In this document: positions 1,777-26,822 of the stretch, one piece after another
How the letters are laid out: every line of letters starts with the position of its first letter
How positions within the stretch are numbered: the first letter of the stretch is position 1
From: Pseudoflavonifractor phocaeensis
Lineage (GTDB): Bacteria; Bacillota; Clostridia; Oscillospirales; Oscillospiraceae
DNA: 64,000 nucleotides
Direction of reading: 5' to 3'
Assembly (NCBI RefSeq): GCF_021531815.1
Contig: NZ_JADYUM010000001.1
Coordinates: 1 to 64,000 of the forward strand
Notes under the pieces: generated by a model
Databases searched by the model: none
The model's input: the letters and a program-made list of their open reading frames with translations, nothing else
Told to the model about the DNA's origin: nothing
Translations under genes and position numbers: made by a program

Positions 1777-2543
1777 TAAATTTTAGTTTATTGTTCTATA
1801 GAACCTAAAACCTATGTGATGTAGGGCAAGGGCTCTGCCCTTGCCTTTCCAGGTGCACCAAATACTGGGAGAGATTTTTGCACTTGAACACTTCGCCTGC
1901 GGGCGGGACGGGGGATGGAGATATTTCGCCCCCGGGCGAGGTACTTTTGTAGAGATACAAAAGTACCCAAAAAATCTCCGGGGCTTCGGCCCCGGCCCCC
2001 AAGGGGCGTCCTACAAAAAAGCCTGCCTCACGTCCGGCGCCCATTCCCTGGTTTTGCTGCCTCACCTTCCGGGCCTTCGGCCCTGAGTGAAACGAATTTG
2101 GATAAGAACAGCCACCGGATGTCAGCGCCTGGGGCTCCGAATTGTGCGGCGTGGTTCCTGACTGCGCTGCCCCGCCCCGCTGTGCAAAACTAGATTCAGT
2201 GGCACGTCCCACCGGGCGGCCCCGGCGGGCCACGGAAGTAAGAAGCATCAAGAACAGGTTTTGCCTGTATCGAGGCGGGCTATATTGCTGATCCCCCGTA
2301 AAACCTCCGAATTTTGTGAAGCAAAAAGGCGGTGTGCTCCAAATCAAATTTTGCGGCTTGGGTTTCGCGCAGGGCAGCTGGGCTCCCGTAGTGGGGTCCG
2401 GGGTAAGGCCGTTGGCGGCGGAGGGCGCAGCCCGAAGCCGGCCTGGCCGTCCCCCGGCCATCTTTTGGTGACTTTTGGATGGCTCCAAAAGTCACTCGCC
2501 GCCGCAGCGGTGAAATCTCCTAACCCTATAAACTAAAATTTTA
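1777..2543 (+). mobile_element. Repeat element copy A (MITE-like, no transposase)
   Basis: This is the first of three copies of a long non-coding element. The left end reads TAAATTTTAGTTT and the right end is its inverse complement, AAACTAAAATTTTA. The body carries a hairpin GTACTTTTG/CAAAAGTAC at about 1940-1967, UUCG-loop hairpins GGGGCTTCGGCCCC and GGGCCTTCGGCCC, and a terminal-side stem GTGACTTTTGG/CCAAAAGTCAC. It is about 94 bases longer than the other copies, through extra sequence inside the left end that has its own hairpin (GCAAGGGCTCTGCCCTTGC). Open frames across it are broken or frameshifted relative to the other copies, so I regard it as non-coding. It lies between two genes of unrelated operons. 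Confidence 0.75.
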
Positions 2544-2725
2544 TGGATTCATCAGCTTCCGAACCCCTTGATTTTACTCGCTTTTCTCCCATCCAAGGCA
2601 TAGAAAAGAGAGCCCCGGGCTAAAATCCAAGACTCTCTCAGAGTACGATGTGATTGCTGATTTGAAGGTGAGCAGGGGGGGAATATTGAGAACAGGTTTC
2701 GTGGGATTATGCACCTGTTTTTCCA

Positions 2726-3628
2726 TTAGTTGTCACAGCGGTAACCAAAATTCTGAATGGCCGCCGGATTATCCCGCCAGTTTTCCTTCACTTTCACCCA
2801 AGTCTGAAGGAACACTTTGGTCCCCATGAACCGCTCCATGTCCTGCCGAGCCAGGGTGGACACCTTTTTCAGCATGGCGCCCCCCTTGCCGATGATGATC
2901 CCCTTGTGGCTGTTCTTCTCGCAGTAGATGGTGGCATCCACCTCCACCACCTCATCGTCCCGCTCGGAAAACCGGGTGATCTCCACGGCGGTCCCGTGGG
3001 GGATCTCCTTGTCCAGACAGAGGAGCAGCTTCTCCCGCAGGATCTCGGCCATCATCTGCCGCTCTGGCTGGTCGGAGGTCATATCCTCCGGAAACAGCTG
3101 GGGGCCCTCGGGCAGGAAGCCCTCCAGCACGTTCAGCAGCTCCTCCACTCCCTCGCCGGTCTTGGCGGAGATGGGGACCACTGCGGTAAAGTCACAGGCC
3201 TGCTGGTACAGTGAAATGACCTCCAGCAGTTTTTCTTTCTGCTCCAGGGTGTCAACTTTATTGATGACCAGTACCGAGGGGCAGTTCAGCGTTCTGATCC
3301 GGTCCAGAAGCTGCTGCTCCGGAGCGCCGATGTTGGGGATGGGCTCCACCAGCAGCATGATCCCGTCCACGTCGGCCACGGACTCCTTGACCACGTTGAC
3401 CATATAGTCCCCCAGCCGGGTACGGGCCTTGTGAAGACCCGGGGTATCCACAAAGACGAACTGGCACTCTCCCCGGTTCTTGATGCCGCAGATGCGGTTC
3501 CGGGTGGTCTGGGGCTTGTTGGTGACAATGGCCACCTTCTCCCCCACCAGGGCGTTGGTCAGAGTGGACTTGCCCACGTTGGGCCGCCCGCAGATGGTGA
3601 TGATTCCGGATTTTTTGATGGTAGACAT
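2726..3628 (-). CDS. era: GTPase Era
   Basis: A 300-residue GTPase that binds 16S rRNA and assists 30S subunit assembly. G-motifs are in order: GRPNVGKST at residues 14-22, the TTRNRI switch, DTPG at 61-64, NKVD at 123-126 and SAK at 154-156. A C-terminal KH RNA-binding domain follows, with the loop IIIGKGGAMLKK near residue 245. Length is normal for the family. It is the last gene of a minus-strand operon RluA-ybeY-VOC-era. The ybeY-era neighbourhood is common in Firmicutes and fits a shared role in rRNA maturation. The chosen ATG has GAGGATC about ten bases upstream. Confidence 0.97.
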   Translation of the reverse strand: MSTIKKSGIITICGRPNVGKSTLTNALVGEKVAIVTNKPQTTRNRICGIKNRGECQFVFVDTPGLHKARTRLGDYMVNVVKESVADVDGIMLLVEPIPNIGAPEQQLLDRIRTLNCPSVLVINKVDTLEQKEKLLEVISLYQQACDFTAVVPISAKTGEGVEELLNVLEGFLPEGPQLFPEDMTSDQPERQMMAEILREKLLLCLDKEIPHGTAVEITRFSERDDEVVEVDATIYCEKNSHKGIIIGKGGAMLKKVSTLARQDMERFMGTKVFLQTWVKVKENWRDNPAAIQNFGYRCDN

Positions 3629-3665
3629 AACAGATGATCCTCAACTTTCTTTGAGCGTTCTTGAT

Positions 3666-4133
3666 TCAGCGCATACAGGAGCGGACAAATTTCAGGGGGA
3701 CGTCCATGCGGCACGCGGTCTGCTCAGGCGTCATGCCGCTGTCCAGAAAACGCCGGCACACAGTCTTCATGTTTTCCCCCACCTCGAGGATGTGCCCGTC
3801 CGGGTCGTACAGGCGGACCACCCGCTGGCCCCAGCGGTGCTCCTTGGGCGGATGGACATAGGAAATTCCCGGACATGCCGACAGTTTAGCCAGGAAGCCG
3901 TCAAAGTCATCCTCCTCAAAATACAGCTCTGCCGCCCGGCCGCCAAACCGGATGTCCCCGGGTCCGGCCCCAAGGAACTCCTGCCAGCTGTCCAGGGTCT
4001 GGAGGCAGACGCCGCCCGTCAGAGTGACGTTGGCCCCGAAGTCCTGGATCACCCGCAGACCCAGCACCTCCCGGTAAAACCGGATGGACCGCTTCAGGTC
4101 GGTCACCGCCAAAAGAGGATTCTGAAATTTCAT
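3666..4133 (-). CDS. VOC (glyoxalase/bleomycin resistance) superfamily protein with C-terminal extension
   Basis: A 155-residue protein whose first 120 residues form one VOC module: the opening MKFQNPLLAVTDLKRSIRFY, a central VRLYDPDGHILEVGE metal-ligand strand, and the usual paired beta-alpha-beta-beta-beta units. The last 30 residues (GMTPEQTACRMDVPLKFV) are a helical extension resembling a small helix-turn-helix; its role is unknown. VOC proteins bind divalent metals and act on diverse small substrates or antibiotics, so no reaction can be named. It sits between ybeY and era, and its ribosome-binding site AGGAGG overlaps the ybeY stop codon, so it is co-translated with ribosome-maturation genes although probably unrelated to them in function. 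Confidence 0.8.
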   Translation of the reverse strand: MKFQNPLLAVTDLKRSIRFYREVLGLRVIQDFGANVTLTGGVCLQTLDSWQEFLGAGPGDIRFGGRAAELYFEEDDFDGFLAKLSACPGISYVHPPKEHRWGQRVVRLYDPDGHILEVGENMKTVCRRFLDSGMTPEQTACRMDVPLKFVRSCMR

Positions 4134-4141
4134 TGCTCCTC

Positions 4142-4630
4142 CTATTCCCGGGTGATGCCCAGTGTCCCCAAAATAGCCTCTTCCCTAGCCCGCATCTGTG
4201 CCTTCATAGGGCCCTCGTCCAGGTGGTCATAGCCCAGCAGGTGGAGCACCGAGTGGACGGTGAGGTAGCACACCTCCCGCTCCAGGCTGTGGCCGAACTC
4301 CGCCGCCTGGGACTCCGCCCGCTCCAGGGAGATGCACATGTCCCCCAGGGGGCACAGCTCCGTGGCCGGGTCCAGATATTCCTCCCCCTGGGGAGGCGCC
4401 CCGGGCTCCAGCTCAAACATGGGGAAAGACAGCACGTCGGTGGGGCGGTCCACCTCCCGCATGTCCAGGTTGACCTGGTGAATGCCCTCGTCATCGGTGA
4501 GCAGGACGTTGATCTCACAGGGCAGCTCCACGCCCTCCGCCTCCAGGGCGGCGAAGATCACTTCCTCCATCCGGCCGGTCAGCCCCTCCGGGACCTCCAC
4601 GTCCGCGTCAAACAGGATCTCATGGTTCAT
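4142..4630 (-). CDS. ybeY: Endoribonuclease/rRNA maturation factor YbeY
   Basis: A 162-residue protein with the UPF0054 signature HSVLHLLGYDH, in which His126, His130 and His136 are the zinc ligands. YbeY acts in 16S rRNA 3'-end processing and ribosome quality control. The upstream part (VNLDMREVDRPTDVLSFP) also matches the family closely. Its start codon overlaps the stop codon of the upstream pseudouridine synthase by four bases (ATGA), so the two are translationally coupled. The ribosome-binding site GGAGGAG lies within the end of that gene. Confidence 0.97.
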   Translation of the reverse strand: MNHEILFDADVEVPEGLTGRMEEVIFAALEAEGVELPCEINVLLTDDEGIHQVNLDMREVDRPTDVLSFPMFELEPGAPPQGEEYLDPATELCPLGDMCISLERAESQAAEFGHSLEREVCYLTVHSVLHLLGYDHLDEGPMKAQMRAREEAILGTLGITRE

Positions 4631-5625
4631 GGCTCTCTCTCCTCCCCCGGCCCGGTCACCCCCGGGACGGAACCGAAATATTCTTCCACAAAGTCCACGT
4701 TCTCCACCTGGAAGGTCCGGCCGTTGAGATGCTCCAAGGGGCCGGCGTCGGTGGTGAACCGGAAGGTCAGCTTATAGGAATACAGGGCCTGGCCGTGGCG
4801 GCCGTATTTCCGGTTGTCCCGCTCGCTGCCGTACTTACCGTCTCCGATAAGGGGGTGTCCGGCGGCGGCGAACTGGGCCCGGATCTGGTGGGTCCTGCCG
4901 GTAATCAGGTCACATTCCACCAGGGACAGGCCGTTTTTCACCGCCAAGGTCTTATATAAGGTGACGGCGGTCTTGGCCCCCGGCTCGGGCCGGGACCGGA
5001 CGTAGACCTGTTTTTTCACCTCGTCCTTAAAAAGATAGCCCTCCAGCTTTCCCTCCCGGGGCTCCAGCTTCCCCCGGACAGCGCAGAGGTAGTATTTGTT
5101 CAGTTCCCGGTCCTTGATCTTCTGGTTCATCACCCGCAGGCCCTCGGCGGTCTTGGCGGCGATGACGATGCCCCCGGTGTTCCGGTCGATGCGGTTGCAC
5201 AGGGCGGGGGCAAAGGAGTTCTCCCAGTAGGGGGACCACTCCTTCTTCTGGTACAAATAGGCCTGGATGTGGGTGAGCAGGGTGTTCACCCGCTCGTTCT
5301 CGTCGGGATGGACCACCAGCCCGGGCCGCTTGTCCAGGAGCATGATGTGTTCGTCCTCATAGAGGATGTTCAGCTTGGGCTGGTACAGGGACAGAAAGGC
5401 GTTTTCCGGGGTGGGCTTGTCAAAAAACTCGTCGTTGATATATAATTGCAGCACATCCCCCACATTGAGCCGCACGTCCCGCTTGGAGCCCTTTCCGTTC
5501 ACCTTCACCCGCTTCAGGCGGATATACTTCTGGGCCAGTGGGGCGGGCAGCAGGGGCAGGGTCTTGGCAAGCCAGCGGTCCAGCCGCTGCCCGGCGTCGT
5601 TTTTTCCAATGGTGAATTCCTTCAT
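4627..5625 (-). CDS. RluA-family pseudouridine synthase
   Basis: A 332-residue enzyme that converts uridine to pseudouridine in rRNA or tRNA. An N-terminal S4 domain (DAGQRLDRWLAKTLP and KRVKVNGKGSKRDVRLNVGD) precedes the catalytic domain. The catalytic motif is NRIDRNTGGIVIAAKT, a variant of HRLDxxTSG with the catalytic Asp kept. LITGRTHQIRAQFAAAGHPL is the conserved RluA C-terminal motif. I place the start at the ATG preceding KEFTIGKND, because an earlier ATG 21 codons upstream has no ribosome-binding site and lies in the divergent promoter region. RluC/RluD-type paralogues cannot be told apart here. Confidence 0.93.
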   Translation of the reverse strand: MKEFTIGKNDAGQRLDRWLAKTLPLLPAPLAQKYIRLKRVKVNGKGSKRDVRLNVGDVLQLYINDEFFDKPTPENAFLSLYQPKLNILYEDEHIMLLDKRPGLVVHPDENERVNTLLTHIQAYLYQKKEWSPYWENSFAPALCNRIDRNTGGIVIAAKTAEGLRVMNQKIKDRELNKYYLCAVRGKLEPREGKLEGYLFKDEVKKQVYVRSRPEPGAKTAVTLYKTLAVKNGLSLVECDLITGRTHQIRAQFAAAGHPLIGDGKYGSERDNRKYGRHGQALYSYKLTFRFTTDAGPLEHLNGRTFQVENVDFVEEYFGSVPGVTGPGEEREP

Positions 5626-5659
5626 TCCGCCAACCGTCCTTTGGTATGAGCTACCATAG

Positions 5660-5688
5660 ATTGCAACACAAAAAAATGTTTTTGTCAA
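5660..5688 (-). promoter_or_regulatory. Possible promoter of the RluA-ybeY-VOC-era operon
   Basis: On the minus strand TTGACA (5688-5683) is followed after 17 bases by TGCAAT (5665-5660). The -35 is perfect and the -10 weak. It lies back-to-back with the yceD promoter. Confidence 0.4.
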
Positions 5689-5704
5689 TATATGAAAAAA
5701 AGGT

Positions 5705-5733
5705 TTGACAAGTCTGGGAAATGTCTTTATAAT
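5705..5733 (+). promoter_or_regulatory. Vegetative promoter of yceD-rpmF
   Basis: TTGACA at 5705-5710 and TATAAT at 5728-5733 are separated by exactly 17 bases, a perfect sigma-A consensus as expected for a ribosomal-protein transcript. A strong ribosome-binding site (GGGGAGGAAGG) follows just before the ATG at 5784. Confidence 0.9.
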
Positions 5734-5783
5734 ACTCTCCGTACCATTATGCGAGTACGGGGCAAACCCCGGGGAGGAAGGCC

Positions 5784-6287
5784 ATGCGTCTGGAACTGAA
5801 AGACATTATCCACGTCCCGGACGCAAAGAAAACCTTCCAATTTCAGGTAGACCTGTCTGACCTGGAGTTCTATGGGCGCAAGCCCATCACCCGGCCCGTC
5901 CTGGCCGAGGGCAGCGTGACCAACCACGCCGGCGCTCTGGTTCTGGAGGGGGCGGCCCGTTCCGTGCTGGACTTGGCCTGCGACCGCTGCGGGAAGGAGT
6001 TTTCCCGGGAAAAGGCGGTCCAACTGGACAGTCTGGTGGCTCAGACCCTGGAGGATGAGGAAAACGACGAGATCATCCTGCTGGAAGGGACCGAGTTAGA
6101 CCTGGACGACGTGGTGACCACGGCCTTCGTCCTCGCGATGGATACCAAAAACCTTTGCTCAGACGACTGCAAAGGGCTGTGCGCCGGGTGCGGAGTCAAC
6201 CTCAACGAGGAACCCTGCCGGTGCAGACCTGAAGTAGATCCAAGACTGGCAGCCCTTGCGCAGCTGTTGGATAAAGATGCTGAGTGA
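5784..6287 (+). CDS. yceD: YceD/DUF177 family, large-subunit rRNA accumulation protein
   Basis: A 167-residue DUF177 protein. Cysteine pairs CDRCGKEF in the middle and CSDDCKGLCAGCG near the C-terminus are typical of the family and may bind metal. YceD is needed for normal 23S rRNA levels in some bacteria and in plastids; its mechanism is not settled. It is directly upstream of rpmF, the standard arrangement, and shares the strong promoter at 5705-5733. Confidence 0.92.
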   Translation: MRLELKDIIHVPDAKKTFQFQVDLSDLEFYGRKPITRPVLAEGSVTNHAGALVLEGAARSVLDLACDRCGKEFSREKAVQLDSLVAQTLEDEENDEIILLEGTELDLDDVVTTAFVLAMDTKNLCSDDCKGLCAGCGVNLNEEPCRCRPEVDPRLAALAQLLDKDAE

Positions 6288-6335
6288 GTAGTCGAAGTGC
6301 CTTGATGGGCACGAAAACCGAAGGAGGTGTCACCC

Positions 6336-6521
6336 ATGGCGGTTCCTAAGAGAAAAGTGTCTAAGGCCCGGCGCGATAAGCGGCGCAGCTCCGTTTGGAA
6401 GCTGGAGACTCCCGGTATCGTGACCTGCCCCAAGTGCGGGGCTTACCGGCTGCCTCACCGGATGTGCAAAAATTGCCTGACCTACAATGGCCATACCTTT
6501 GGCCAGGCCGAGGCCCAGTAA
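6336..6521 (+). CDS. rpmF: Ribosomal protein bL32
   Basis: A 61-residue basic protein beginning [18 protein letters not shown], with the zinc-ribbon cysteines CPKCG and CKNC, so it is the zinc-binding form of L32. The start is the ATG at 6336: AAGGAGG at 6321-6327 is spaced correctly for it, whereas a GTG at 6327 overlaps the Shine-Dalgarno itself. Second gene of the yceD-rpmF operon, followed by a terminator. Confidence 0.98.
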
Positions 6522-6533
6522 GTGAATTTTGCG

Positions 6534-6571
6534 AAAAAGACTGCTGTACGCCGTACAGCAGTCTTTTTTAT
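6534..6571 (+). terminator. Intrinsic terminator of yceD-rpmF
   Basis: A perfect stem GACTGCTGTACG/CGTACAGCAGTC is flanked by an A-run and followed by TTTTTTAT. The A-run also lets it act in the opposite direction, at the end of recO. Confidence 0.93.
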
Positions 6572-6639
6572 ATGGTTCGCGGCCTTCTTTCTCCCGCGCA
6601 GGACGTGGGAAGGCGCACTTTATTCCGCCGAAACGGACT

Positions 6640-7404: not shown

Positions 7405-7437
7405 GGGCACCCTCCTATGTATGGGGCCGCTGGCCCC

Positions 7438-7593
7438 TCAGATTTGACGCGGACTGCGCACGCCTCCGCTGAACGCCGTCTTGGACGGCAGATCCGGGAG
7501 GGCTTTTTTCGCGTCCCGCTCTCCCCGGATGGCCAGGTAGGCCTCCGGCAGTCCGGTGATAAAAAACAGTCTCCACAAACCCCGTTCATCCAT
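7438..7593 (-). CDS. yqzL: YqzL-like small protein
   Basis: A 51-residue reading frame preceded by GGGAGG seven bases before the ATG. Its first part reads LWRLFFITGLPEAYL, matching the short YqzL family pattern of an aromatic W..F.. followed by TG and (E/D)AYL. YqzL lies directly upstream of recO in Bacillus and many Clostridia, as here. Its function is unknown. The tail (KTAFSGGVRSPRQI) is less family-like. The assignment rests on pattern plus position. Confidence 0.7.
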   Translation of the reverse strand: MDERGLWRLFFITGLPEAYLAIRGERDAKKALPDLPSKTAFSGGVRSPRQI

Positions 7594-7656
7594 GACCCAG
7601 CCTCCCGTTTTCTCTGTACCGTTAGGCTGGCTGCTGAAACGGCGCGTTATAAGCGG

Positions 7657-8329
7657 TAAATTTTAGTTTTCTGAGGATTTCGCCTGCGGGCGGGACGGGA
7701 GATAGGGGTGTTTCGCCCCCGGGCGAGGTTCTTTTGTAGAGATACAAAAGTACCCAAAAAATCTCCGGGGCTTCGGCCCCGGTCCCCAAGGGGCGTCCTT
7801 CAAAAAAGCCTGCCTCACGTCCGGCGCACATTCCCTGGTTTTGCTGCCCTGCCTTCCGGGCCTTCGGCCCTGAGCGGAGTGAATTTGAATACAGGCAACC
7901 GCTGAATACCGGCGCCTACGTTTCCGAATTGTGTGGCGTAGTGCTTGGCCGCGCTGCCCCGCCCCGTTGTGCAAAACTTGATTCAGTGGCACGTCCCACC
8001 GGGCGGCCCCGGCGGGCCACGGAAGTAAGACACAACAAGCACAGGTTTTGCCTGTATCGAGGCGGACTGTATTGCATATCCCCCGTAAAACCTCCGAATT
8101 TTGCGAAGCAAAAAGGCGGTGTGTTCCAAATCAATTTTGCGGCTTGAGTTTCACGCAGGGCCGCTGGGCTCCCGTAGTGGGGTCCGGGGGTAAGGCCGTT
8201 GGCGGCGGAGGGCGCAGCCCGAGGCCGGCCTGGCCGTCCCCCGGCCATCTTTTGGTGACTTTTGGATGGCTCCAAAAGTCACTCGCCGCCGCAGCGGCGA
8301 AATCTCCTAACCCTATAAACTAAAATTTA
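7657..8329 (+). mobile_element. Repeat element copy B (MITE-like, no transposase)
   Basis: A 673-base copy with perfect 13-base terminal inverted repeats: TAAATTTTAGTTT at 7657-7669 and AAACTAAAATTTA at 8317-8329. Inside the ends the similarity continues imperfectly (left GGATTTCGCC, right as complement of GGCGAAATC). Strong stems include CTTTTG/CAAAAG at about 7732-7750, GGGGCTTCGGCCCC and GGGCCTTCGGCCC with UUCG loops, TTTTGCGAAGCAAAA, and GTGACTTTTGG/CCAAAAGTCAC near the right end. Both ends carry TA, compatible with insertion at TA. The right end overlaps the rlmA stop codon. Reading frames conserved in the other copies are interrupted here. Confidence 0.8.
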
Positions 8330-9172
8330 GTCATCCTTTCTGCGGTACCAATGAATGTCAAACCCGATCCCTGTCTCCAGCTGATGCAGTTCTTTCAGCC
8401 GTTCCACCCCTGCCTTTGGAGTCTTCCAGGCGTAGGGTGTCATTCCGAACAGGGCCATGATGTCCGCCCCATTCTCCAGCGTGATCCGCCCCCGCACCTG
8501 CTCCACCCCCTGCCAGAGGAAGCCGGGGTAGTCCTCCCGCTTGGCCGGGTTCTCATAGGGCTGCTCGTATAAAACTTCCTTCATCTCCCACAGGTGCCGC
8601 GGGGCCGGGACCACATAGCAGTACAGTCCCCCGGGTTTCAGGACCCGGGCGAACTCCTCCGCCGCCAGGGGAGAAAACACGTTGGTCAGGATGTCCACGC
8701 TCCGGTCCGCCAAGGGCAGGCGGTAGACCGAGGCCACGGCAAACTCCCCCTGGGGCAGCCGCCTGGCCGCCCGGCGCAGGGCAAATTTGGACAGGTCCAC
8801 CCCGGCCATCCCGGGTTTCTTCCCCGCCCCGGTGAGGGCATGGAACAGTCCCTCGGTATAGTACCCCTGGCCGCAGCCGCTGTCCAGCAGCACCGGGCTC
8901 TGCTCCTCCCCCGACTCCCGGACCACCAGATGGCACAGGGCATCCCGCAGAGGGGCATAATACCCCTTCTCCAGAAAGGCCGACCGGGCGGCCACCATCT
9001 CCTTGTCGTCCCCCGGGTTCTGAGAGTGCTTCCGGTTGGCCGGGAGCAGATGGGTGTATCCGGCGGCGGCAATATCAAAACAGTGTCCGGCAGGACAGCG
9101 GTATTGATGCTCCTCCCTCTCCAGCGGCCCGGCGCACAGGGGACAGCAAAACAGGCTTTTCAAACACTTCAC
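8327..9172 (-). CDS. rlmA: 23S rRNA (guanine-N1)-methyltransferase, RlmA type
   Basis: A 281-residue SAM-dependent enzyme of the RlmA family, which methylates N1 of G745 or G748 in 23S rRNA; the latter activity gives tylosin resistance in some species. The N-terminal zinc ribbon is visible (CCPLCAGP then YRCPAGHCFD), followed by the family motif HSQNPGDDKEMVAARSAFL and SAM motif I LLDSGCGQGYYTEGL near residue 97. The start is a GTG with only a weak ribosome-binding site. The stop codon TAA (complement of 8327-8329) is formed by the last three bases of repeat copy B, so insertion may have replaced the original 3' end. Confidence 0.9.
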   Translation of the reverse strand: MKCLKSLFCCPLCAGPLEREEHQYRCPAGHCFDIAAAGYTHLLPANRKHSQNPGDDKEMVAARSAFLEKGYYAPLRDALCHLVVRESGEEQSPVLLDSGCGQGYYTEGLFHALTGAGKKPGMAGVDLSKFALRRAARRLPQGEFAVASVYRLPLADRSVDILTNVFSPLAAEEFARVLKPGGLYCYVVPAPRHLWEMKEVLYEQPYENPAKREDYPGFLWQGVEQVRGRITLENGADIMALFGMTPYAWKTPKAGVERLKELHQLETGIGFDIHWYRRKDD

Positions 9173-9198
9173 CTCATTGTCTCAGGTCAGCCGGGCCG

Positions 9199-10827: not shown

Positions 10828-10907
10828 GGCGCATTTCTCCTTTTCCCTTTCACTGATTTTATTACGATTATCCATCCTGAACAAGGTTATATGTCTTTTG
10901 CTGGGAT

Positions 10908-10927
10908 CGTGCGGCGGCCGCCGCACG
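10908..10927. repeat. Perfect 20-base GC palindrome in the ggt leader
   Basis: GTGCGGCGGCCGCCGCAC extended by one pair on each side, about 80 bases upstream of the ggt start codon. It could form a leader hairpin or be a protein-binding site; nothing more can be said. Confidence 0.5.
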
Positions 10928-11033
10928 AACAAACCGCAATGGGGTCGATCCAGCAGACATTATTATACTAAAAACCGATCTCTTTGAACAGCGGGACGGA
11001 GAAATTTTATCTCCGCCCGCCGGTGGAAACAGA

Positions 11034-11066
11034 AGCGCCCGCTCACTGGAGCGGGCGCTTTTTCGT
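11034..11066. terminator. Bidirectional-type terminator after folD
   Basis: Stem AGCGCCCGCTC/GAGCGGGCGCT with loop ACTG, followed by TTTTT on the plus strand and a T-rich stretch on the minus strand. It ends the minus-strand ymfF-ymfH-lgt-folD operon. Confidence 0.85.
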
Positions 11067-11073
11067 ATGTATC

Positions 11074-11916: not shown

Positions 11917-11919
11917 GGC

Positions 11920-14225: not shown

Positions 14226-14228
14226 GGG

Positions 14229-16359: not shown

Positions 16360-16365
16360 TGTTCT

Positions 16366-16400
16366 GCCGCCCGCCGGTTTTCCGGCGGGCGGTTTTTTTC
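16366..16400. terminator. Terminator between convergent methyltransferase and glucan synthase genes
   Basis: Stem CCGCCCGCCGG/CCGGCGGGCGG with a T-rich loop, followed by TTTTTTT on the plus strand. It sits between two convergent genes and probably serves both. Confidence 0.93.
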
Positions 16401-16405
16401 CGTCT

Positions 16406-19400
16406 TTACAGGGTGACCTCCAGCCCGTGTTCTCCTTTCAGCTCCGACAGGAGAACACCGTTTGGGACAGGGGCCCCGTCCAGCAGGACGGAGGAGCTGC
16501 CCGTCCGCCGCACCCGGATGCGGAGCAGCCCGGCGTGCAAAGTCCACTGGGCAGAATATCCGGGCCAATCCGGGGGCAGGTTTGGCTTCACAAACAGGCG
16601 GCCCTCCCGGACCTTCAGGCCCAGCAGCTCCCCCACCGCCACCTGCCAGTACCAGCCCGCCGCACCGGTGTACCAGCTCCAGCCCGCCCGGCCCTCCCGG
16701 CCGGGTGCAGAGGACACATCGGCGGCAATGACGTAGGGCTCTGCCCGGTATTCCCGGGTGGGATGGTGCTCAGGCAGCAGGGCCCGCAGCACCTCCCAGC
16801 CCTCCCCTGCCCGGTCCAGCCGGAAGCAGGCCAGGGCCAGCCAGAGGGCGGCATGGGTATACTGTCCCCCGTTCTCCCGGACCCCGGCGGGATAGCCCTT
16901 GATATAGCCCGGGTCCCGGTCCTCCCCGCCGTCAAAGGCCGGGTCAAAGAGCCGGACCACCTGGTGTTCCCGGTCGAACAGCCGGTCCAGGGCGGCGGAC
17001 ACCGCCCGGTCTGCCTGTTCCCGGTCCGCGCCTTGGGGCAGGGCGGCGAAGGATTGGGCGATGGAGTCGATCTGGCACCGGCGGCTTTGGGCGGAGCCCA
17101 GCGGGGTCCCATCATCATAGTAGCCCCGGCGGTACCATGCTCCGTCCCAGGCACGGTGGGCGGCGGACAGATATTCCGACGCCCGTTTCAGCAGCTCTTC
17201 CGCCCTCTTCTCCTCCCCCACGCGGCGGCAGAGGGGGGCGAATTCCTGCAGGACCACCACCAGAAACCAGGTGAGCCACACCGACTCCCCCTTTCCTCCG
17301 GCCCCCACCCGGTTCATGCCGTCGTTCCAGTCTCCGCCTCCCATGAGGGTCAGGCCGTGGGGGCCGGGTCCCCGTTCCAGGACACAGCGGACAGCGGCCA
17401 GGGCGTGGCGGTACAGGCTGTCCTCCTTTTCGCTGGCCCGGGGGACCTCGTACCGCTCCATCTCTCTGTCGGCCAAGGGAGGAGAGGCGAGATAGGGCGC
17501 CCGCTCATCCAGAACCGACCAATCCCCTGTGACGGCGCAGTAGCGGCTCAGGACCCAGGGCAGCCAAAGCAGGTCGTCGCTGATCCGGGTGCGGACTCCG
17601 GCTCCGTGGGGCGGGTGCCACCAGTGCTGGACGTCCCCCTCCTCAAACTGGCGGGACGCGGCCAGCAGAAGCTGTTCCCTCGTCCGCTCCGGCCAAGTCC
17701 AGAGCAGAGCGGCCGCGTCCTGGAGCTGGTCCCGGAAGCCGTAGGCTCCGCCGTTCTGGTACTGGGAGGTCCGGGCCATCAGGCGGCAGGCCGCCACCTG
17801 GTACAGGCACCAGCCGCCCAGATAGCGGTCCAGGGCGGGGTCCGGGGTATTCACCCGCAGTGCCGACACCTTGTTCTTCCACCAGTCCGCCGTCTCCTCC
17901 CGGGCACCGTCCAGCCGCCTGGGAGTAAAGCGGTACTCCGGCCCGTTCTTCCCGGGGGTGGCCAGCAGCGTCAGCGGCAAGTCTTGGGCCAAAGGATGGG
18001 ACAGAAGCTCCCGTCCTTTCAGACATACTCTCAGCACGCCGGAGGTTCCGGTCAGGATAAAGGTCAGCGTGCGGTAATTCTCCCCCGTGGGGACAAAACC
18101 CCGGGTAAGCAGCGTGCCGTTTTTGAGCCGCTTCTCCCACCGGGCCGCGCCGGGAGCGTAGGTGACGGTACAGGGCAGGCCGTCTCCCGCCGCGAACACG
18201 GAGACCTCTCCCCCTTCCAGGTCCAGCAGGATACGCTCCGGGCCACCCACCGCCAGGGGATCGTTGGTCCAGGGCGTCAGCCTGCCCTCCCGGGCGTTGC
18301 CGCCGGTCCACAGGAAGCCCGCCCCCGTCTCGTCCGTGAGCCAGCCGAATTCCGGATTACATAATAGTTGGCTCCACCCCACCGGGGGCAGCCGGTCCCC
18401 TGTCTGAATGGAGACTGTGTCACCCTCCAGCCGCCAGGGGGCGGGACCGGGAGCCACCTCTACCGGAGTCGGCGGGACGATTTTCTCCTGCCGGGCAGGT
18501 TCCGTCTCCCGGGGCAGGGGCAGCACCGCCTTGGCCCAGGCCAGCACCGCAGGTGCCCCCTCCTTGCCCACCAGATGGACGCCTCCCTTGGCCCCCAGGG
18601 CCGACTCCGCTCCCAACTCCTTCAGCCCCTCCAGAATGGCGGTGCGCAGGGGACGGCGGTAGTCGCCTCCCTCCTCCACCACCAGGACCAGGTCAAAGGG
18701 ATACCCGGACCGGGTCAGCAGCTGGTGCCAGCGGCACCACAGCAGGGCCTGTTCCTGCTCCTCTTGTCCCGCCACAGGACCGGCGGCGATGGGCAGGTCC
18801 CCGGAGATGCCAAAGGGCCACAGAGAGGACTGGGGCGGACGCTCCTTGTCCTCCTCCCGGGCCGCCAGCTTGTCCAGCAGGCGAAAGCCCTCCAGGGCCT
18901 GGAGTTCCGTCAGGGACAGCCGCCGTACCAGAGGGGCCAGACTTCCTGGCTCCCCACCCCTGAGGACCCGGCGGGCCTCCTCAGCGGCTACCTCGGGTCT
19001 GTCCCCCACCGCCAAGGCCAGGGCGAAGGCGGCCCGTTCTCCCGGCCCCAGGGTGACCGGGAACCGGACCATGAGACAGGGGTCGGTCCCCACTCCTTGG
19101 CCCAGGGGGCCCGGTTTGCGCCCGGGCAGAGCCCGCAGCCCGCCCCGGCCCAAAGCCGCCTCCCGGTCCAGAGCCAGGTCAGCCTCCTCACCGTCCCACA
19201 GAACGGCCAGCACCGGTTCCCGGCTCCCGCTCCGGGCACGCCGGCAGAACAGGACGCCTCCTTCCGTCCGCTGTCCCTCCAGGAACAGCCGGGAAAAAGC
19301 GGGGTGGGCCGCAAAATCCCGCAGGGGGCAGAGCACCGGCTCCAGGTACAGGAGCAGCTCTCCCACCAGCGGCTGCGTCCCCTCCCAGGTCAACTCCACC

Positions 19401-22400
19401 CTGCGTAATTCCCCGTTTTCCCGCCGCGGGACGGACAACGTGGTACGGGCGGTCAGGCCGCCCCGGCGGAGGGTCCATGCGGCCCCGGCGGCGTAAAACT
19501 CCCAGCGGTACTCTCCATCTTGATACAGGGGGGCGGGGGTCAGGCCGAAAAGCTCCCTTTCTCCCTGAAAGAAAAAGGACACGCCCGCCGGGGCGTAGTA
19601 TTCCCCCGGTCCGGCCAGGGTGACTTGGTCGTCCCACAGTCTGGAGTCGGTCAGGCCGCTGTCCCGGACCAGGACGGACCAGCTGCCGTTGGATACCAAA
19701 TGGCACCGGGGGTACAGCAGCCCCCAGTCCTCCCCCGTCCGCTCCAGGCCGGGACCGGAAACCGGCTTGGGTTTCTCCGGAATGTCCCGGTCCCGCTGGC
19801 GGGTCACCGGCTCCCCCACCGGCACCCGCTCCTGGAGCAGTTCCCGGTAGGCCGCCATGTCCCGGTCCGTCATGAACCGCTTCTGCATGATATTGTCCCG
19901 CAGCGCGTTGTCAATGGCCACCAGACTCATGCCCAAATGGTGAGACATATAGGAACGGACCACCTCATAGTCCTCCCGGCCGTGCAGGTGGGAGGGGGTG
20001 TAGTCCACCGCCTCGTACAGGCCATAGCGGCCCTCCAGCCCCATATCCCGCAGGCGGCGCAGGTTGGCCAGGGCGCTTCGTGGGGCCAGGAGGAGGGCCA
20101 GGAAAGAGGAGTAGGGAGACACCACCAGTTCGGAATCCAGCCCCCGCTTCAGTCCCAGAACCTGGACCCCGTGGGCCTTGTACTGGTAATTCATGGCCGG
20201 GTCAAAGGCGTAAAACCCCGACTCGGAGATGCCCCAGGGGGTCTTGGTCTTGACTCCCCGCCGTTTCTGGGCGTAGATGCAGAAGGCCAGCGTCTCATAG
20301 AGAAAGGAGTTGGGCTCACAGGGCAGGAGCAGGTTGGGCATGAAGTATTCGAACATGGTCCCCGTCCAGGAGGCCATGCCGCTGTAATCGTTGTCCCCCA
20401 GCAGCATCCGCCCCAGCCGCCGCCAGTGCCGGGGCTCCACCTCGCCCCGGGCGATGGCGATATAGCTGGTCTGCCGGGCCTCGCTGGCCATCAGGTCGTA
20501 ATAGCCGCCGGTGAGCTTCTCCCGCTCCACCTCGTAGCCGATGGAAAACAGCTTCCGGTCCCGGTCATAAAGGGGGGCGCAGTCCATGGCCCCGGCCAAG
20601 GCCATGGACCGGCGGGACAGGTCCTCCTCTCCCCACTCCTGCAACCCTTCCCCCAGGGCAATGAGGCAGCCCCGGAGGTTGCCGCTGTCCACGGTGGACA
20701 CATACCTGGGGTGGAGGGGACACAGGGAAGCCGTGTCGTACCAGTTGTACAGGTGTCCCCTCCATTTATCCAGCCCCTCCACCGTGTCCAGGATATGGGC
20801 AATGAGTTCCGCCGCCCGCTGCCGGGACAGCAGGTCCAGGTCAGCCGCCGCCATGGCGGACAGGAGGGCAAGGCCGATATTGGTGGGCGAGGTCCGCCGG
20901 GCCAGCACGGGTCCGGGCTGCTCCTGCCAGTTGTCCGGCGGCAGCCAGTGGTCCCCGGGCTGGAGGAAGTCGGCAAAATACCGCCAGATCAGGGTGGCCT
21001 CATGGAGCAGGAATGCCCGGTCGGAGGGAGACAGCTTTTTCCCTCCGGCAGAGGGCTGGCTGATGGCCCAGGCCAGTGCGGGGGCCATCAGCCAAAGGAA
21101 GCCCACCGCCATGCCCAGGCGCAGCCGGGCAGACACCAGGGTGAACAGCCCCACCGCCACGGAGAACCACAGCTTTTGATAGTAGGACCACAAGCTGTCC
21201 TTCCCCTTTTCCGCCTGGTCCGCCGTCACCCAGGCCAACATGTTTTTGTGGGACACCCCCATCCGCCACAGGGCGGTGCAGGCGGCAGAGGCGCAGATAT
21301 AGGCGTGGTAGGGCAGGAACAGCAGCTGGAAGGCGGTCTGAAGGACCGCCCCCGCCAGTCCGGCGATGACGGTGGAGTGGTAACGGCGGTGCTTGCCGTT
21401 CCGCCGCCGGGCAGCCAGCTCCGCCCCGGACAGCAGCAGGTTGGAGGCGGCGGCCACCACAGCCACGCCCCCCGCCCAGGCAAAGGCCGCGTCCCACCGG
21501 CAGATGCCCAGCACCAGAGCGGCCAGGGTGAACACCGGAGACAGGGAGCGGCGGAGGTTATCAAAAATCTTCCACCGGGCCAGCAGGGTCAGCGGGTTGT
21601 CCTCCTCCCCTCCCTGGCCGTCCGGCACCCGGGAAAACAGCCACGGCAGCAGCTGCCAGTCCCCCCGGACCCAGCGGTGGAGCCGTGCGAAATAGCTGTA
21701 CACCTTCCAGGGGCAGCCGTCGGTGAGCTCCACCTCCCCCAGCAGCCCCGCCCGGAGGTAGCTGCCCTCCAGCAGGTCGTGGGACAAAATGGCATTCTCC
21801 GGGAAACGGCGGTCCAGACAGGTGAAAAAGGCGTCCACCTGGAAAATTCCCTTGCCGGTGTAGGTCCCCTGGTCAAAGAGGTCGTGATATACGTCGCTGG
21901 CGGCAGAGCCGTAGGGGTCCACACCCCCCAGTCCCCCGAAGACCCGGGAGAACAAGGAGCGGTTGGCCGCTTCCAGGTCCACCGCCACCCGGGGCTGAAA
22001 CAGGGCGTGGCCCGACGCCACCACCCGCCGCTTCCGGTCCACCTCCGGCTGGTTCAGCGGGTGGAGCATGGCCCCCACCAGTTCCCGGGCGGTGCCCACG
22101 TTCAGGCTGGTGTCTGAGTCCAGGGTGATGACAAACTTGGTTCCCCTCAGGCTCTCCCGGTCCCCGGCCTCCACCTCCAGACCGGTTGGCCGTTCCTTCA
22201 GCAGGCGGACCAGCTGGAGCAGGGCGCCCCGTTTCCGCTCCCAGCCCAGGTACTTTTCATCCCGGGGGCTAAATTGGGGGCGGCGGAAGAACAGGTAGAA
22301 GCCGCCGCCGTATTTCCGGTTCAGCTGTTCCACTGCCTCCCTGGCGCTTTCCACCCAAGCCCGGCCCGTTTCCCCCATGGGGGGCCCGCTGTCGGGCAGG

Positions 22401-23575
22401 TCGGCCAGGATCCCGAAGCGCAGTTCCGCCCCCGCGTCCCGGTTGGCCAGCCGGTACCGCTCCAGCAGGCCGGCCAGCTTTGGCCCGCTGTCCGGCCCGG
22501 TGAGCAGGGCCACCACCACGCACAGGGTCCGGCCATGGGCGGGGATCCCGCCCTCCAGCTCCATCCGGAACACCGGACGGGGCGGCACCAGCCGCACTAG
22601 GGCAAAGTCCAGCACATTTTTCACGATGTCGGACAGGGGCAGCAGCAGGAGCAGAGGGAGCATCCAGGACCTTGCCCATATGCCCATGGCCAGGGCCGCG
22701 CCCAGGGACAGGCCGCACACCGCCCACACATAACCCGCGCCGGAGGGCAGGCGCGCCTTTCTGCCCAGAGGCTGGCGGTAGAGGTACCAGCCGATGTGCT
22801 GTCGGACCCCAGTCCCCTTTTGGGCCAGGTCCAACGCACGGCGGGCCGCCTGACCCTCCTCCAGCCGGTACTTTCTGGCCAGGCGGCACACCTGCTGGCG
22901 GTAGCGGCGACGGCTGTCCTCATCCATGTGGGGATAGTGGCCTGAGGGGTCCTGGCGCAAAATGGCCTCCACCCGGCTGCCCCCCTCCAACACCGGCCCC
23001 CAATTGGCCGCGGACAGGGCCCGCAGCGAGGAGAACAGCGCCTCAAAACTCCCCGCGTCCCCCTTGCCCGCTTCCAGAGCTTCCACATCGCCGCACAGCT
23101 CTCCCAGCCGCTCCACTGCCGCCCCGGCCAATGCCGGCACGAACAGAGACAGTTCCCGCTCGCTCAAGGGCAGCACAGATTGGAAGGCGGACAGATACCG
23201 GGCCACCTGTCCGCTCTCCAGATTCGGCGCCGCCCACAGCAGCCCCTGGGCGCAGTGCCACAACAGACACATGCCATTCTCTGTCCCCCGGAGAGGACGG
23301 CCCTTTCGGAAGGAGCGCACGGCCTCCCAGCCCTCCCGCAACGCCAGATAGCGGTTGTCCAACAGCCACTCCACGGCCGGAGGAAGTGTGGTGCGCCCTG
23401 CGCTCCATTCGGTCAGGCAGCGGCAGGTACGCTCCATCTTCTCCAACGCGTCTCGAATGGCCCCTTCCAATTTTTTTACAGGGATGAATCCCGAAGGCTT
23501 CAATTCCCGGGCGGCATTGACCGCATAGTTGGCCAGATGGGCGTCATCCATTGGGACGTTGGGCGTATTGGACAT
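16406..23575 (-). CDS. Cyclic beta-1,2-glucan synthase-like protein (GT84-GH189-GH94 architecture)
   Basis: A 2,389-residue membrane protein. After an alpha-helical N-terminal region and membrane helices comes a processive glycosyltransferase domain, with LDSDTSLNVG near residue 483 (UDP-sugar/metal-binding Asp) and LHRWVRGDWQLLPWL near 637. A second membrane block follows, then a glycoamylase-like transglycosylase domain (LYNWYDT and YVSTVDSGNLRG near 950; SWTGTMFEYFMPN near 1070). The C-terminus is a GH94 phosphorylase-like domain with GGGDWNDGMNRVG near 2080. This is the domain order of Brucella Cgs and Rhizobium NdvB, which polymerise, length-trim and cyclise beta-1,2-glucan; those are about 2,800 residues. 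The start with GGAGG upstream is preferred over a longer frame. A beta-1,2-glucan product is inferred, not proven. Confidence 0.9.
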   Translation of the reverse strand: MSNTPNVPMDDAHLANYAVNAARELKPSGFIPVKKLEGAIRDALEKMERTCRCLTEWSAGRTTLPPAVEWLLDNRYLALREGWEAVRSFRKGRPLRGTENGMCLLWHCAQGLLWAAPNLESGQVARYLSAFQSVLPLSERELSLFVPALAGAAVERLGELCGDVEALEAGKGDAGSFEALFSSLRALSAANWGPVLEGGSRVEAILRQDPSGHYPHMDEDSRRRYRQQVCRLARKYRLEEGQAARRALDLAQKGTGVRQHIGWYLYRQPLGRKARLPSGAGYVWAVCGLSLGAALAMGIWARSWMLPLLLLLPLSDIVKNVLDFALVRLVPPRPVFRMELEGGIPAHGRTLCVVVALLTGPDSGPKLAGLLERYRLANRDAGAELRFGILADLPDSGPPMGETGRAWVESAREAVEQLNRKYGGGFYLFFRRPQFSPRDEKYLGWERKRGALLQLVRLLKERPTGLEVEAGDRESLRGTKFVITLDSDTSLNVGTARELVGAMLHPLNQPEVDRKRRVVASGHALFQPRVAVDLEAANRSLFSRVFGGLGGVDPYGSAASDVYHDLFDQGTYTGKGIFQVDAFFTCLDRRFPENAILSHDLLEGSYLRAGLLGEVELTDGCPWKVYSYFARLHRWVRGDWQLLPWLFSRVPDGQGGEEDNPLTLLARWKIFDNLRRSLSPVFTLAALVLGICRWDAAFAWAGGVAVVAAASNLLLSGAELAARRRNGKHRRYHSTVIAGLAGAVLQTAFQLLFLPYHAYICASAACTALWRMGVSHKNMLAWVTADQAEKGKDSLWSYYQKLWFSVAVGLFTLVSARLRLGMAVGFLWLMAPALAWAISQPSAGGKKLSPSDRAFLLHEATLIWRYFADFLQPGDHWLPPDNWQEQPGPVLARRTSPTNIGLALLSAMAAADLDLLSRQRAAELIAHILDTVEGLDKWRGHLYNWYDTASLCPLHPRYVSTVDSGNLRGCLIALGEGLQEWGEEDLSRRSMALAGAMDCAPLYDRDRKLFSIGYEVEREKLTGGYYDLMASEARQTSYIAIARGEVEPRHWRRLGRMLLGDNDYSGMASWTGTMFEYFMPNLLLPCEPNSFLYETLAFCIYAQKRRGVKTKTPWGISESGFYAFDPAMNYQYKAHGVQVLGLKRGLDSELVVSPYSSFLALLLAPRSALANLRRLRDMGLEGRYGLYEAVDYTPSHLHGREDYEVVRSYMSHHLGMSLVAIDNALRDNIMQKRFMTDRDMAAYRELLQERVPVGEPVTRQRDRDIPEKPKPVSGPGLERTGEDWGLLYPRCHLVSNGSWSVLVRDSGLTDSRLWDDQVTLAGPGEYYAPAGVSFFFQGERELFGLTPAPLYQDGEYRWEFYAAGAAWTLRRGGLTARTTLSVPRRENGELRRVELTWEGTQPLVGELLLYLEPVLCPLRDFAAHPAFSRLFLEGQRTEGGVLFCRRARSGSREPVLAVLWDGEEADLALDREAALGRGGLRALPGRKPGPLGQGVGTDPCLMVRFPVTLGPGERAAFALALAVGDRPEVAAEEARRVLRGGEPGSLAPLVRRLSLTELQALEGFRLLDKLAAREEDKERPPQSSLWPFGISGDLPIAAGPVAGQEEQEQALLWCRWHQLLTRSGYPFDLVLVVEEGGDYRRPLRTAILEGLKELGAESALGAKGGVHLVGKEGAPAVLAWAKAVLPLPRETEPARQEKIVPPTPVEVAPGPAPWRLEGDTVSIQTGDRLPPVGWSQLLCNPEFGWLTDETGAGFLWTGGNAREGRLTPWTNDPLAVGGPERILLDLEGGEVSVFAAGDGLPCTVTYAPGAARWEKRLKNGTLLTRGFVPTGENYRTLTFILTGTSGVLRVCLKGRELLSHPLAQDLPLTLLATPGKNGPEYRFTPRRLDGAREETADWWKNKVSALRVNTPDPALDRYLGGWCLYQVAACRLMARTSQYQNGGAYGFRDQLQDAAALLWTWPERTREQLLLAASRQFEEGDVQHWWHPPHGAGVRTRISDDLLWLPWVLSRYCAVTGDWSVLDERAPYLASPPLADREMERYEVPRASEKEDSLYRHALAAVRCVLERGPGPHGLTLMGGGDWNDGMNRVGAGGKGESVWLTWFLVVVLQEFAPLCRRVGEEKRAEELLKRASEYLSAAHRAWDGAWYRRGYYDDGTPLGSAQSRRCQIDSIAQSFAALPQGADREQADRAVSAALDRLFDREHQVVRLFDPAFDGGEDRDPGYIKGYPAGVRENGGQYTHAALWLALACFRLDRAGEGWEVLRALLPEHHPTREYRAEPYVIAADVSSAPGREGRAGWSWYTGAAGWYWQVAVGELLGLKVREGRLFVKPNLPPDWPGYSAQWTLHAGLLRIRVRRTGSSSVLLDGAPVPNGVLLSELKGEHGLEVTL

Positions 23576-23675
23576 AAGAATACCTCCAGGGATAAATTTC
23601 TGATTTCCATCCAGTTTGCCCCGGCTCTGGGTGAATATACCAAAGAAACCAGCTCTTGTTGTCAAGGAATTTGAC

Positions 23676-23704
23676 TTGACAAACAGGGCAAACTGTGCTA
23701 TCAT
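23676..23704 (+). promoter_or_regulatory. Vegetative promoter of ylxM-ffh
   Basis: TTGACA at 23676-23681 and TATCAT at 23699-23704, spacing 17. It lies in the divergent region upstream of the glucan synthase gene. Confidence 0.8.
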
Positions 23705-23759
23705 TCCGTTTGTAAAGTTAATCAGCTTTACATTTCAGAATATAAGGAGGTCGGGACCC

Positions 23760-24125
23760 ATGAAAAACCAGGCTTACCGCATGGCGATGCTGTTCGATTT
23801 TTACGGCGATGTGCTGACGGACCGGCAGAAGGAGTTCTACGACCTCTATTACAACGAGGACCTGTCCCTGGGGGAGATCGCGGAGAATTACAACATCACC
23901 CGCCAGGGCGTCCGGGACGTCATCGTCCGGGCCGAGGCCATCCTCACCGATTTGGAGGACAAGACCGGTCTCATCAAGCGTTTCCACACCATGACGGAAC
24001 AACTCCGGCAGGTCCGGGACGACGCCCAGCGGCTGGCGGACCTGTCCGCCCGGCGGGATGACGAAGAGATGGAAGTCCTCTCCCTCCGCATCCGGGACGC
24101 CGCCGACACCCTTTTGAAGGAGTAA
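23760..24125 (+). CDS. ylxM: YlxM-family putative DNA-binding protein
   Basis: A 121-residue UPF0122 protein with a sigma-70 region-4-like helix-turn-helix (RQKEFYDLYYNEDLSLGEIAENYNITRQGVRDVIVRAE, residues about 20-55) and a coiled C-terminal half. In Firmicutes it is almost always directly upstream of ffh; in Streptococcus it modulates SRP GTPase activity. The real start is MKNQAYRM, with AAGGAGG upstream, well inside a longer frame. It ends three bases before ffh. Confidence 0.93.
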   Translation: MKNQAYRMAMLFDFYGDVLTDRQKEFYDLYYNEDLSLGEIAENYNITRQGVRDVIVRAEAILTDLEDKTGLIKRFHTMTEQLRQVRDDAQRLADLSARRDDEEMEVLSLRIRDAADTLLKE

Positions 24126-24128
24126 CCC

Positions 24129-25514
<1,386 letters not shown>

Positions 25515-25596
25515 CCACCGCCGCGCGCTTTGTTGGTAAAACACCCCCGTGTGTTTTCCATATATAACTTACAAATACATTTGGAGGTGAATATAA

Positions 25597-25836
25597 ATGG
25601 TTAAAATCAGACTGCGTCGTATGGGCGCCAAGAAGGCTCCCTTCTACCGCATCGTGGTGGCTGACTCCCGCTATCCCCGTGACGGCCGTTTCATCGAGGA
25701 GATCGGCACTTACAATCCCGTTGTCAACCCCGCCGAGCTGAAGGTGGACGTGGACCGCGCTCAGGCTTGGATCAAGACCGGAGCTCAGCCCACCGAGACC
25801 GTCCGTGACCTGCTGAAAAAGGCCGGCGCGCTGTAA
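25597..25836 (+). CDS. rpsP: Ribosomal protein bS16
   Basis: A 79-residue protein with the S16 signature [22 protein letters not shown] at its N-terminus. Preceded by TTGGAGGTGA. Codon choice is that of a highly expressed gene. Standard neighbour of ffh and khpA. Confidence 0.98.
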
Positions 25837-25856
25837 GGCTGGAGGTTTTACACGCA

Positions 25857-26087
25857 ATGAAAGAGCTTCTGACCTACGTGGCCCAGAACCTGGTGGAGCA
25901 CCCCGAACAGGTCTCCGTCAACGAGGTCGAGGGCGACGGAGAGACCGTTCTGGAGCTGCGGGTAGCCCCCGAGGACATGGGCAAGGTGATCGGCCGCCAG
26001 GGCCGTATTGCCAAGGAGATCCGTGTTCTGATCCGCTCTATGGCCCAGCGGTCCGGAAAACGCGTCTCTGTGGAGATCGTAGACTAA
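25857..26087 (+). CDS. khpA: KH-domain RNA-binding protein KhpA
   Basis: A 76-residue single-KH-domain protein with the GxxG loop in VIGRQGRIAKEIRVLI (residues 41-56). KhpA pairs with KhpB (EloR/Jag) in RNA binding and in control of cell elongation in Firmicutes. The rpsP-khpA-rimM order is typical; here a terminator and repeat copy C separate khpA from rimM. Confidence 0.95.
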   Translation: MKELLTYVAQNLVEHPEQVSVNEVEGDGETVLELRVAPEDMGKVIGRQGRIAKEIRVLIRSMAQRSGKRVSVEIVD

Positions 26088-26125
26088 AACAAAGGCGCAG
26101 GGAGTTTTCCTGCGCCTTTGTTTTA
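26086..26125 (+). terminator. Intrinsic terminator after khpA
   Basis: A near-perfect stem AAAACAAAGGCGCAGG/CCTGCGCCTTTGTTTT begins within the khpA stop codon. It ends the ylxM-ffh-rpsP-khpA transcript before rimM. Confidence 0.95.
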
Positions 26126-26149
26126 TCTGAAAAATGATATTCAGTGTGG

Positions 26150-26822
26150 TAAATTTTAGTTTATAGGGTTAGGAGATTTCGCCGCTGCGGTGGCGAGTGA
26201 CTTTTGGAGCCATCCAAAAGTCACCAAAAGATGGCTGGGGGACGGCCAGGCCGGCCTCGGGCTGCGCCCTCCGCCGCCAACGGCCTTACCCCCGGACCCC
26301 ACTACGGGAGCCCAGCGGCCCTGCGCGAAACCCAAGCCGCAAAATTTGATTTGGAACACACTGCCTTTTGCTTCGCAAAATTCGGAGGTTTTACGGGGGA
26401 TCAGCAATACAGCCCGCCTCGATACAGGCAAAACCTGTTCTTGATGCTTCTTACTTCCGTGGCCCGCCGGGGCCGCCCGGTGGGCCGTGCCACTGAATCA
26501 AGTTTTGCACAACGGGGCGGGGCAGCGCAGCCAAGAATCACGCCGCACAATTCGGAAACTCAGGTGCCGGTATTCAGCGGTTGCCTGTATTCAAATTCAC
26601 TCCGCTCAGGGCCGAAGGCCCGGATGGCGGGGCAGCAAAACCAGGGGATGGGCGCCGGACGTAAGGAAGGCTTTTTTGTAGGACGCCCCTTGGGGACCGG
26701 GGCCGAAGCCCCGGAGATTTTTTGGGTACTTTTGTATCTCTACAAAAGTACCTCGCCCGGGGGCGAAACATCCCTATCCCCCGTCCCGCCCGCAGGCGAA
26801 ATCCTCAGAAAACTAAACTTTT
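26150..26822 (-). mobile_element. Repeat element copy C (MITE-like, inverted relative to A and B)
   Basis: A 673-base copy, the same length as copy B but in the opposite orientation. Its left end TAAATTTTAGTTT (26150-26162) is intact; the other end is decayed to AAACTAAACTTTT (26810-26822). All the internal hairpins of copy B are present, including the two UUCG-loop stems. A long frame here (from 26204) resembles one in copy A, but differs from it by frameshifts, so coding is doubtful. It lies between the khpA terminator and rimM, whose start codon is 41 bases beyond it. Confidence 0.8.

Follow-up and report, generated by a model that had tools for sequence, protein, structure and literature searches.

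The window analyzed here is the 64,000-nucleotide stretch that opens contig NZ_JADYUM010000001.1 of the Pseudoflavonifractor phocaeensis draft genome (GCF_021531815.1, 2.67 Mb in 45 contigs, hereafter G000), and it carries three copies, A, B, and C, of a non-coding repeat bounded by 13-bp terminal inverted repeats (TIRs). We describe the family to which these copies belong, many of whose sites are also occupied in a sister species (draft genome G060), there by elements with different bodies. An original prediction, made from the letters alone, had placed the copies at 1777, 7657, and 26150, the last one inverted, and this arrangement was confirmed in the window sequence, as were the hairpins it named and the 673-bp length of copies B and C; copy A does start at 1777, but it ends at 2542 rather than 2543. 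The three copies have ends in common as predicted, although some ends depart slightly from the others. Allowing up to two mismatches, the end motif TAAATTTTMGTTT occurs seven times in the window, and six of these occurrences are the ends of the three copies (100 shuffles of the window gave a mean of 0.36 and a maximum of 3); the right end of A carries one mismatch and the window-right end of C two. Copies B and C are 95% identical, and copy A aligns with B only from about B position 23, its left end module being different. A 49-nt module lies at both ends of the body in inverted orientation (76–78% complementary), and each arm contains a perfect or near-perfect hairpin. The features of the three copies are as follows.

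1777..2542, + strand: copy A, 766 bp, a mosaic in which a different left end module (1777 to ~1891) is joined to the large body
1777..1789, + strand: TIR of copy A, exact
1825..1845, + strand: hairpin GGCAAGGGC/GCCCTTGCC in the left module of copy A, GTAG before the hairpin, REP-like in look only (read from the sequence)
2530..2542, − strand: TIR of copy A, one mismatch
7657..8329, + strand: copy B, 673 bp, large body
7657..7669, + strand: TIR of copy B, exact
7722..7770, + strand: long inverted module, left arm, 76% complementary to 8239–8287, containing the hairpin 7727–7754
7765..7782, + strand: hairpin CCGGGGCTTCGGCCCCGG
8239..8287, + strand: long inverted module, right arm, containing the hairpin 8255–8282, whose stem shows compensatory variation among copies and species
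8317..8329, − strand: TIR of copy B, exact; its outer TAA (8327–8329) is the stop codon of an RlmA-domain gene (8327–9172, − strand)
26150..26822, − strand: copy C, 673 bp, inverted; the same intergenic gap in G060 holds a 200-bp element with another body
26150..26162, + strand: TIR of copy C, exact
26810..26822, − strand: TIR of copy C, two mismatches

The three copies had been expected to stand for many in the genome, and BLAST returned 52 matches to copy B in G000, many of them covering part of B. From these matches and the exact TIR matches, read with their flanks, we defined 36 TIR-bounded elements of 173–800 bp, pairing ends with at most five mismatches summed over both; copies unlike B and lacking an exact TIR would escape this set, and one member (C2:46, in contig:position form) has probably been truncated by the start of its contig. 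Because several contigs break off within a copy, the true copy number is probably higher. Within the stretches examined, G060 holds 34 elements, 8 large and 26 small. Across both genomes the elements measure 145–854 bp and the mean G+C by class is 55–59%; the 36 G000 elements average 57% G+C against 60% for the window, which does not bear out the description of a GC-rich body. Nor is there a single 0.67-kb element: the elements are mosaics that combine a few end and body modules in varied ways, and the large body is one among several types.

The family is concentrated in the two genomes. An exact TIR was found in 8 of 61 genomes of the genus, and only G000 (35) and G060 (84) exceed two matches; the 1–2 matches in each of the other six equal the level of a reversed-pattern control, which reached up to 3 in some genomes and gave no match in G000 or G060. 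The same ends do recur outside the window, where their absence would have argued against mobility. A longer end pattern of the small G060 class was found in G060 alone among 64 genomes of the genus. Copy B gave matches in 24 of 60 genomes (its own included, G060 outside the set), those in the others covering short parts only, and body modules without a TIR are present in other species of the genus. In other members the covarying hairpin module, discussed below, sits inside larger intergenic repeats that lack TAAATTTT ends, and in G007 paired GTAGGGGCGG and inverted CCGCCCCTAC-type repeats with the look of a REPIN stand at gene ends. A phage or plasmid origin was considered and rejected, as copy B had no match at E≤1e-5 in 50,697 phage and 72,556 plasmid records. 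Among viral contigs there was one match to the small-class end of G060, and two large-class patterns gave none. By eye, an IMG/VR contig carries integrase-like, PolC-like, and ispG-like open reading frames (ORFs), the last of these with a small-class element upstream, close to a site that is occupied in G000 (C33:148461) and in G060.

The termini read R|TAAATTTTMGTTT...AAACKAAAATTTA|Y. A TA dinucleotide lies at both ends, the base outward of it is C or T at 62 of 72 ends in G000 and 66 of 68 in G060, and duplications longer than TA are no more marked than in shuffles. The 13-bp TIRs and the dispersed high copy number are both features of miniature inverted-repeat transposable elements (MITEs). 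Many elements abut a gene, and the terminal TAA of the TIR is then the stop codon of that gene: open frames of at least 100 codons terminate in frame at the first TIR triplet at 43 of 140 ends, compared to 29 of 280 for the other two frames (Fisher p 4.6e-7). For 15 G000 sites, picked because a frame ended there, we read the homologous gene in G060 and up to three other genomes of the genus. At 13 of the 15, at least one element-free relative stops at the same place or within 1–2 codons, while other relatives of the same sites run on for up to 7 codons (C3:33925, C33:186913 in G011). The remaining two of the 15 are C11:123615, where G060 has its stop 18 nt upstream of the element, and C42:26711, whose status as a gene is doubtful. 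At the site corresponding to C43:81593, G012 (C1:2196100–2197000) has two copies of the 3′ end of the gene separated by other sequence, which looks like an element insertion with a long duplication.

To compare sites, the flanks of the 36 G000 elements were matched to the flanks of the 34 G060 elements, using draft genomes, one per species. Twenty-three of the 36 G000 sites are also occupied in G060. In 16 pairs both flanks match (80–92% identical) and the element boundaries coincide or nearly so; a further five sites are shared by one flank, with a G060 TIR at the same gene end, and two by both flanks at G060 contig ends. Some shared sites lie away from stop codons (window copy C, C12:30882, C40:152447, and C33:158591). 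Three other elements (C17:17300, C41:77938, and C2:46) have a one-flank match to a G060 element and were excluded from the 23, and at C8:22671 G060 retains a decayed remnant without a TIR. The site of copy B is rearranged in G060 and keeps a short trace. Copy B stands at a synteny break, its left flank lying on G060 C12 and its right flank on G060 C65. Elsewhere in the window, 16406–23704 (− strand) is occupied by a 2432-codon ORF with glycosyl hydrolase 94 and glucoamylase-type domains.

At the shared sites measured, the two occupants have little in common between their ends. In the 16 pairs the aligned fraction of the shorter body averages 0.03 (maximum 0.15), whereas body overlap is 0.11 over all cross-species pairs, 0.67 within G000, and 0.57 within G060. 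Bodies resemble other copies of their own genome, not the occupant of the same site in the other species, and in 14 of the 16 pairs the G060 occupant is shorter than 400 bp. The seven further shared sites, at five of which the G060 element was compared over 71–155 bp only, gave no body hit in four cases and a 17-bp hit within the TIR only in one; in the other two most hits were inverted, the same-orientation hits being one of 49 bp (69%) and one of 28 bp. Twelve G060 elements of 255–268 bp are 93–99% identical to one another (median 96%), compared to 80–92% for the flanks. Because sites are shared, their bodies are unlike, and the G060 copies are more alike than the orthologous flanks, the sites look old and the bodies young. 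If shared occupancy is by descent, the G060 bodies would have spread after the split into sites that were already occupied. One site bears a direct trace of an older occupant: 23 bp past the element at G060 C22:103062 there is another TIR end, exactly at the position of the G000 TIR end. Two empty sites also keep short TIR-like sequences, taken to be traces of loss: AGCGG-TAAATTTTA in G060, by the left flank of B, and TAAATTTC in G000, where G060 has an insertion.

The explanation that we favor, with moderate confidence, is a non-autonomous, TIR-bounded modular family, MITE-like in build and BOX-like in habit, whose bodies are replaced at resident sites. Elements would have entered the sites before G000 and G060 separated as species. 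Resident elements would later have been excised or lost, perhaps between the AAATTT repeats of the two ends, and the gap filled from, or re-entered by, the body type then active in the lineage. The filling could be repair of the gap on the template of another copy, an exchange of cassettes, or a fresh insertion; in this way the sites would be kept and their interiors replaced over time. The TIRs were probably recognized in trans by a cut-and-paste transposase directed to TA, an activity that fits the element ends. The original prediction of a very large MITE mobilized in trans at TA holds with respect to the non-coding body, the TIRs, the many copies, and the TA at both termini, but no autonomous partner appeared among the TIR matches listed, and no transposase of the two families searched was found.

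Several observations weigh against body replacement at resident sites. Of the 23 shared sites, five were matched by one flank only, and for three of the 36 (C3:14638, C3:71234, and C11:165074) no assignment was reached. Five G000 sites have no element in G060 (copy A, by one flank only, C17:10118, C22:112122, C27:5373, and C40:148098); in the reverse test, of nine G060 sites without a clear G000 partner, five are empty in G000, the rest being one truncated remnant, one site occupied at contig ends (the serC site), one rearranged, and one unassigned. With ten sites lacking an element in the other species, some of them judged by one flank, some occupancy must be recent or have been lost without a trace. 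Filled and empty orthologous sites are both seen, as in MITEs. The large body occurs in both species, 64–67% identical over most of its length, at different sites. Empty stop codons in the sister species read TAA or TGA, whereas at filled sites the element is preceded by R and followed by Y; the observed right flank is therefore not what simple duplication of TA at a stop codon would produce. Finally, PF13358 (DDE_3) was absent in four genomes and PF01609 (DDE_Tnp_1) in the two carrier genomes, in a search that covered those two families only and drafts that break at copies, and no autonomous element with the same ends appeared among the TIR matches listed. An unpaired TIR-like site (G000 C11:135654) lies with two ORFs in which nothing was recognized by eye, no family search having been made.

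Two other accounts of the shared sites were weighed, and we regard each as rather unlikely. In one, the two species were invaded independently, each by a body type of its own, and their sites coincide because they are hot targets, with TA at stop codons and R and Y around it. The palindromic flank preference, the excess at stop codons, and the ten sites empty in one species all suit such a history, and if only a few hundred stop codons were eligible, some overlap of sites would be expected; yet some shared sites lie away from stop codons, an older TIR end stands beside the new element at one shared site, and 23 shared sites of 36 is, in our informal judgment, high for chance. In the other, which we hold equally tentatively, the TIRs are recombination sites of fixed docking sites, and cassettes are swapped through a dedicated recombinase or through gap repair that a transposase sets off. 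In this way dozens of gene-end sites would receive a new interior within a lineage, the site and the stop codon both being kept.

Different explanations concern what the body itself might do. That the family consists of protein-coding genes is hardly credible. Minus-strand frames of 207–228 codons are present in five G000 copies, but they are broken in copy B, in several other G000 copies, and in all seven large G060 copies examined, and substitutions between A and C within the frame of A are spread almost evenly over codon positions (14/17/19). No conserved frame was found in the large class; the original prediction that frames are disrupted between copies is thus upheld, and intact frames under selection, which would have spoken for a gene, were not seen. 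A large structured RNA family of ~600–670 nt that a mobile element carries or has spread would be compatible with body replacement, and we consider it improbable. All 20 shuffles of copy B fold less well than the copy itself (z −3.25), and the large body is kept in the two species at different sites, as noted above. The terminal hairpin is represented by 35 distinct stems (one unrelated-looking) with 396 Watson-Crick cells and up to four pair types per position, although the pairing rate is inflated because stems with more than three mismatches were left out; from these alignments we take the compensatory pairing to be real. The evidence for strand is in conflict. On the element plus strand the hairpin modules have 8 G.T and 3 A.C pairs, whereas the 41 pairs that RNAalifold predicts on both strands alike show the opposite (3 G.T and 9 A.C), and the two strands differ little in energy (−108.7 and −107.0). 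No strong global fold emerged when 19 large-class copies were run through RNAalifold, and Rfam gave no match in the window at the gathering threshold, nor at E≤1 over 7600–8400. At 14 of the 16 measured shared sites, moreover, G060 holds a short element (<400 bp) with an unrelated body. The compensatory changes that had been looked for are therefore present in the variable hairpin stem, but selection at the RNA level, suggested in the original prediction, is not supported, given the conflicting strand counts and the absence of an Rfam match. A known RNA family was rejected on the Rfam result at those thresholds. It is very unlikely that the elements are bidirectional transcription terminators, selected at gene ends whatever the body. 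Terminator-like sites are in excess in the 36 G000 elements (110 versus 28 in shuffles), in the 8 large G060 elements (28 versus 7.5), and over window 7500–8500 (8 versus 1.7), but not in the 26 small G060 elements that occupy many of the same sites (10 versus 10.2), so termination is not the common function.

If replacement of bodies at resident sites is correct, a bacterial genome could renew its whole repeat population without new insertion sites, and the origin of concerted evolution in bacterial intergenic repeats would become testable with strain genomes. If sites are stable and their contents replaceable, the presence of a repeat at an orthologous site does not count as evidence that this particular repeat is ancestral. 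That elements sit exactly on stop codons suggests how they could persist with little harm.

Tn3-derived elements known as TIMEs have Tn3-type ends and a 5-bp duplication, neither of which is seen in this family. Their mosaic, non-autonomous construction is shared with it (PMC4133298). The bacterial MITEs RUP, Correia/NEMIS, and ERIC are described as shorter than 200 bp, A+T-rich, and flanked by a target duplication; like this family they are non-coding and multicopy, with TIRs and 5′-TA termini (PMC2229807). Compared to MITEs as described there, the elements reported here are larger (145–854 bp) and richer in G+C (class means of 55–59%); no duplication beyond TA is apparent in them, and the transposase families searched yielded no partner. 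REPINs (PMC3116915) and GTAG-REPs are likewise palindromic intergenic repeats, and GTAG-REP ends are reported to supply flanking ORFs in many cases with a TAG stop (PMC3733652). Some modules of this family likewise contain a GTAG-flanked hairpin, but REPs measure 20–40 bp (PMC3733652) and would in this family be components of larger TIR-bounded elements.

The closest likeness in habit is to BOX of Streptococcus pneumoniae, which is described as composite, modular, and intergenic, providing the stop codon of the adjoining gene in 36 cases without strong evidence of truncation, and with orthologous inserts that vary in length (PMC3049150). BOX and this family are both modular, intergenic, and stop-supplying, and the likeness is one of habit only: the present elements, unlike BOX, have clear TIRs and reach 854 bp, and what is described for BOX is length variation, partly through the number of boxB modules, rather than exchange of whole interiors between species (PMC3049150). 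Non-autonomous TIR repeats are already known, and so is seating on stop codons, from BOX and GTAG-REPs. Among the open-licence PMC papers listed in searches, none had a title or abstract start that dealt with this family or with whole-body exchange at conserved sites, and such exchange between sister species appears to be new.

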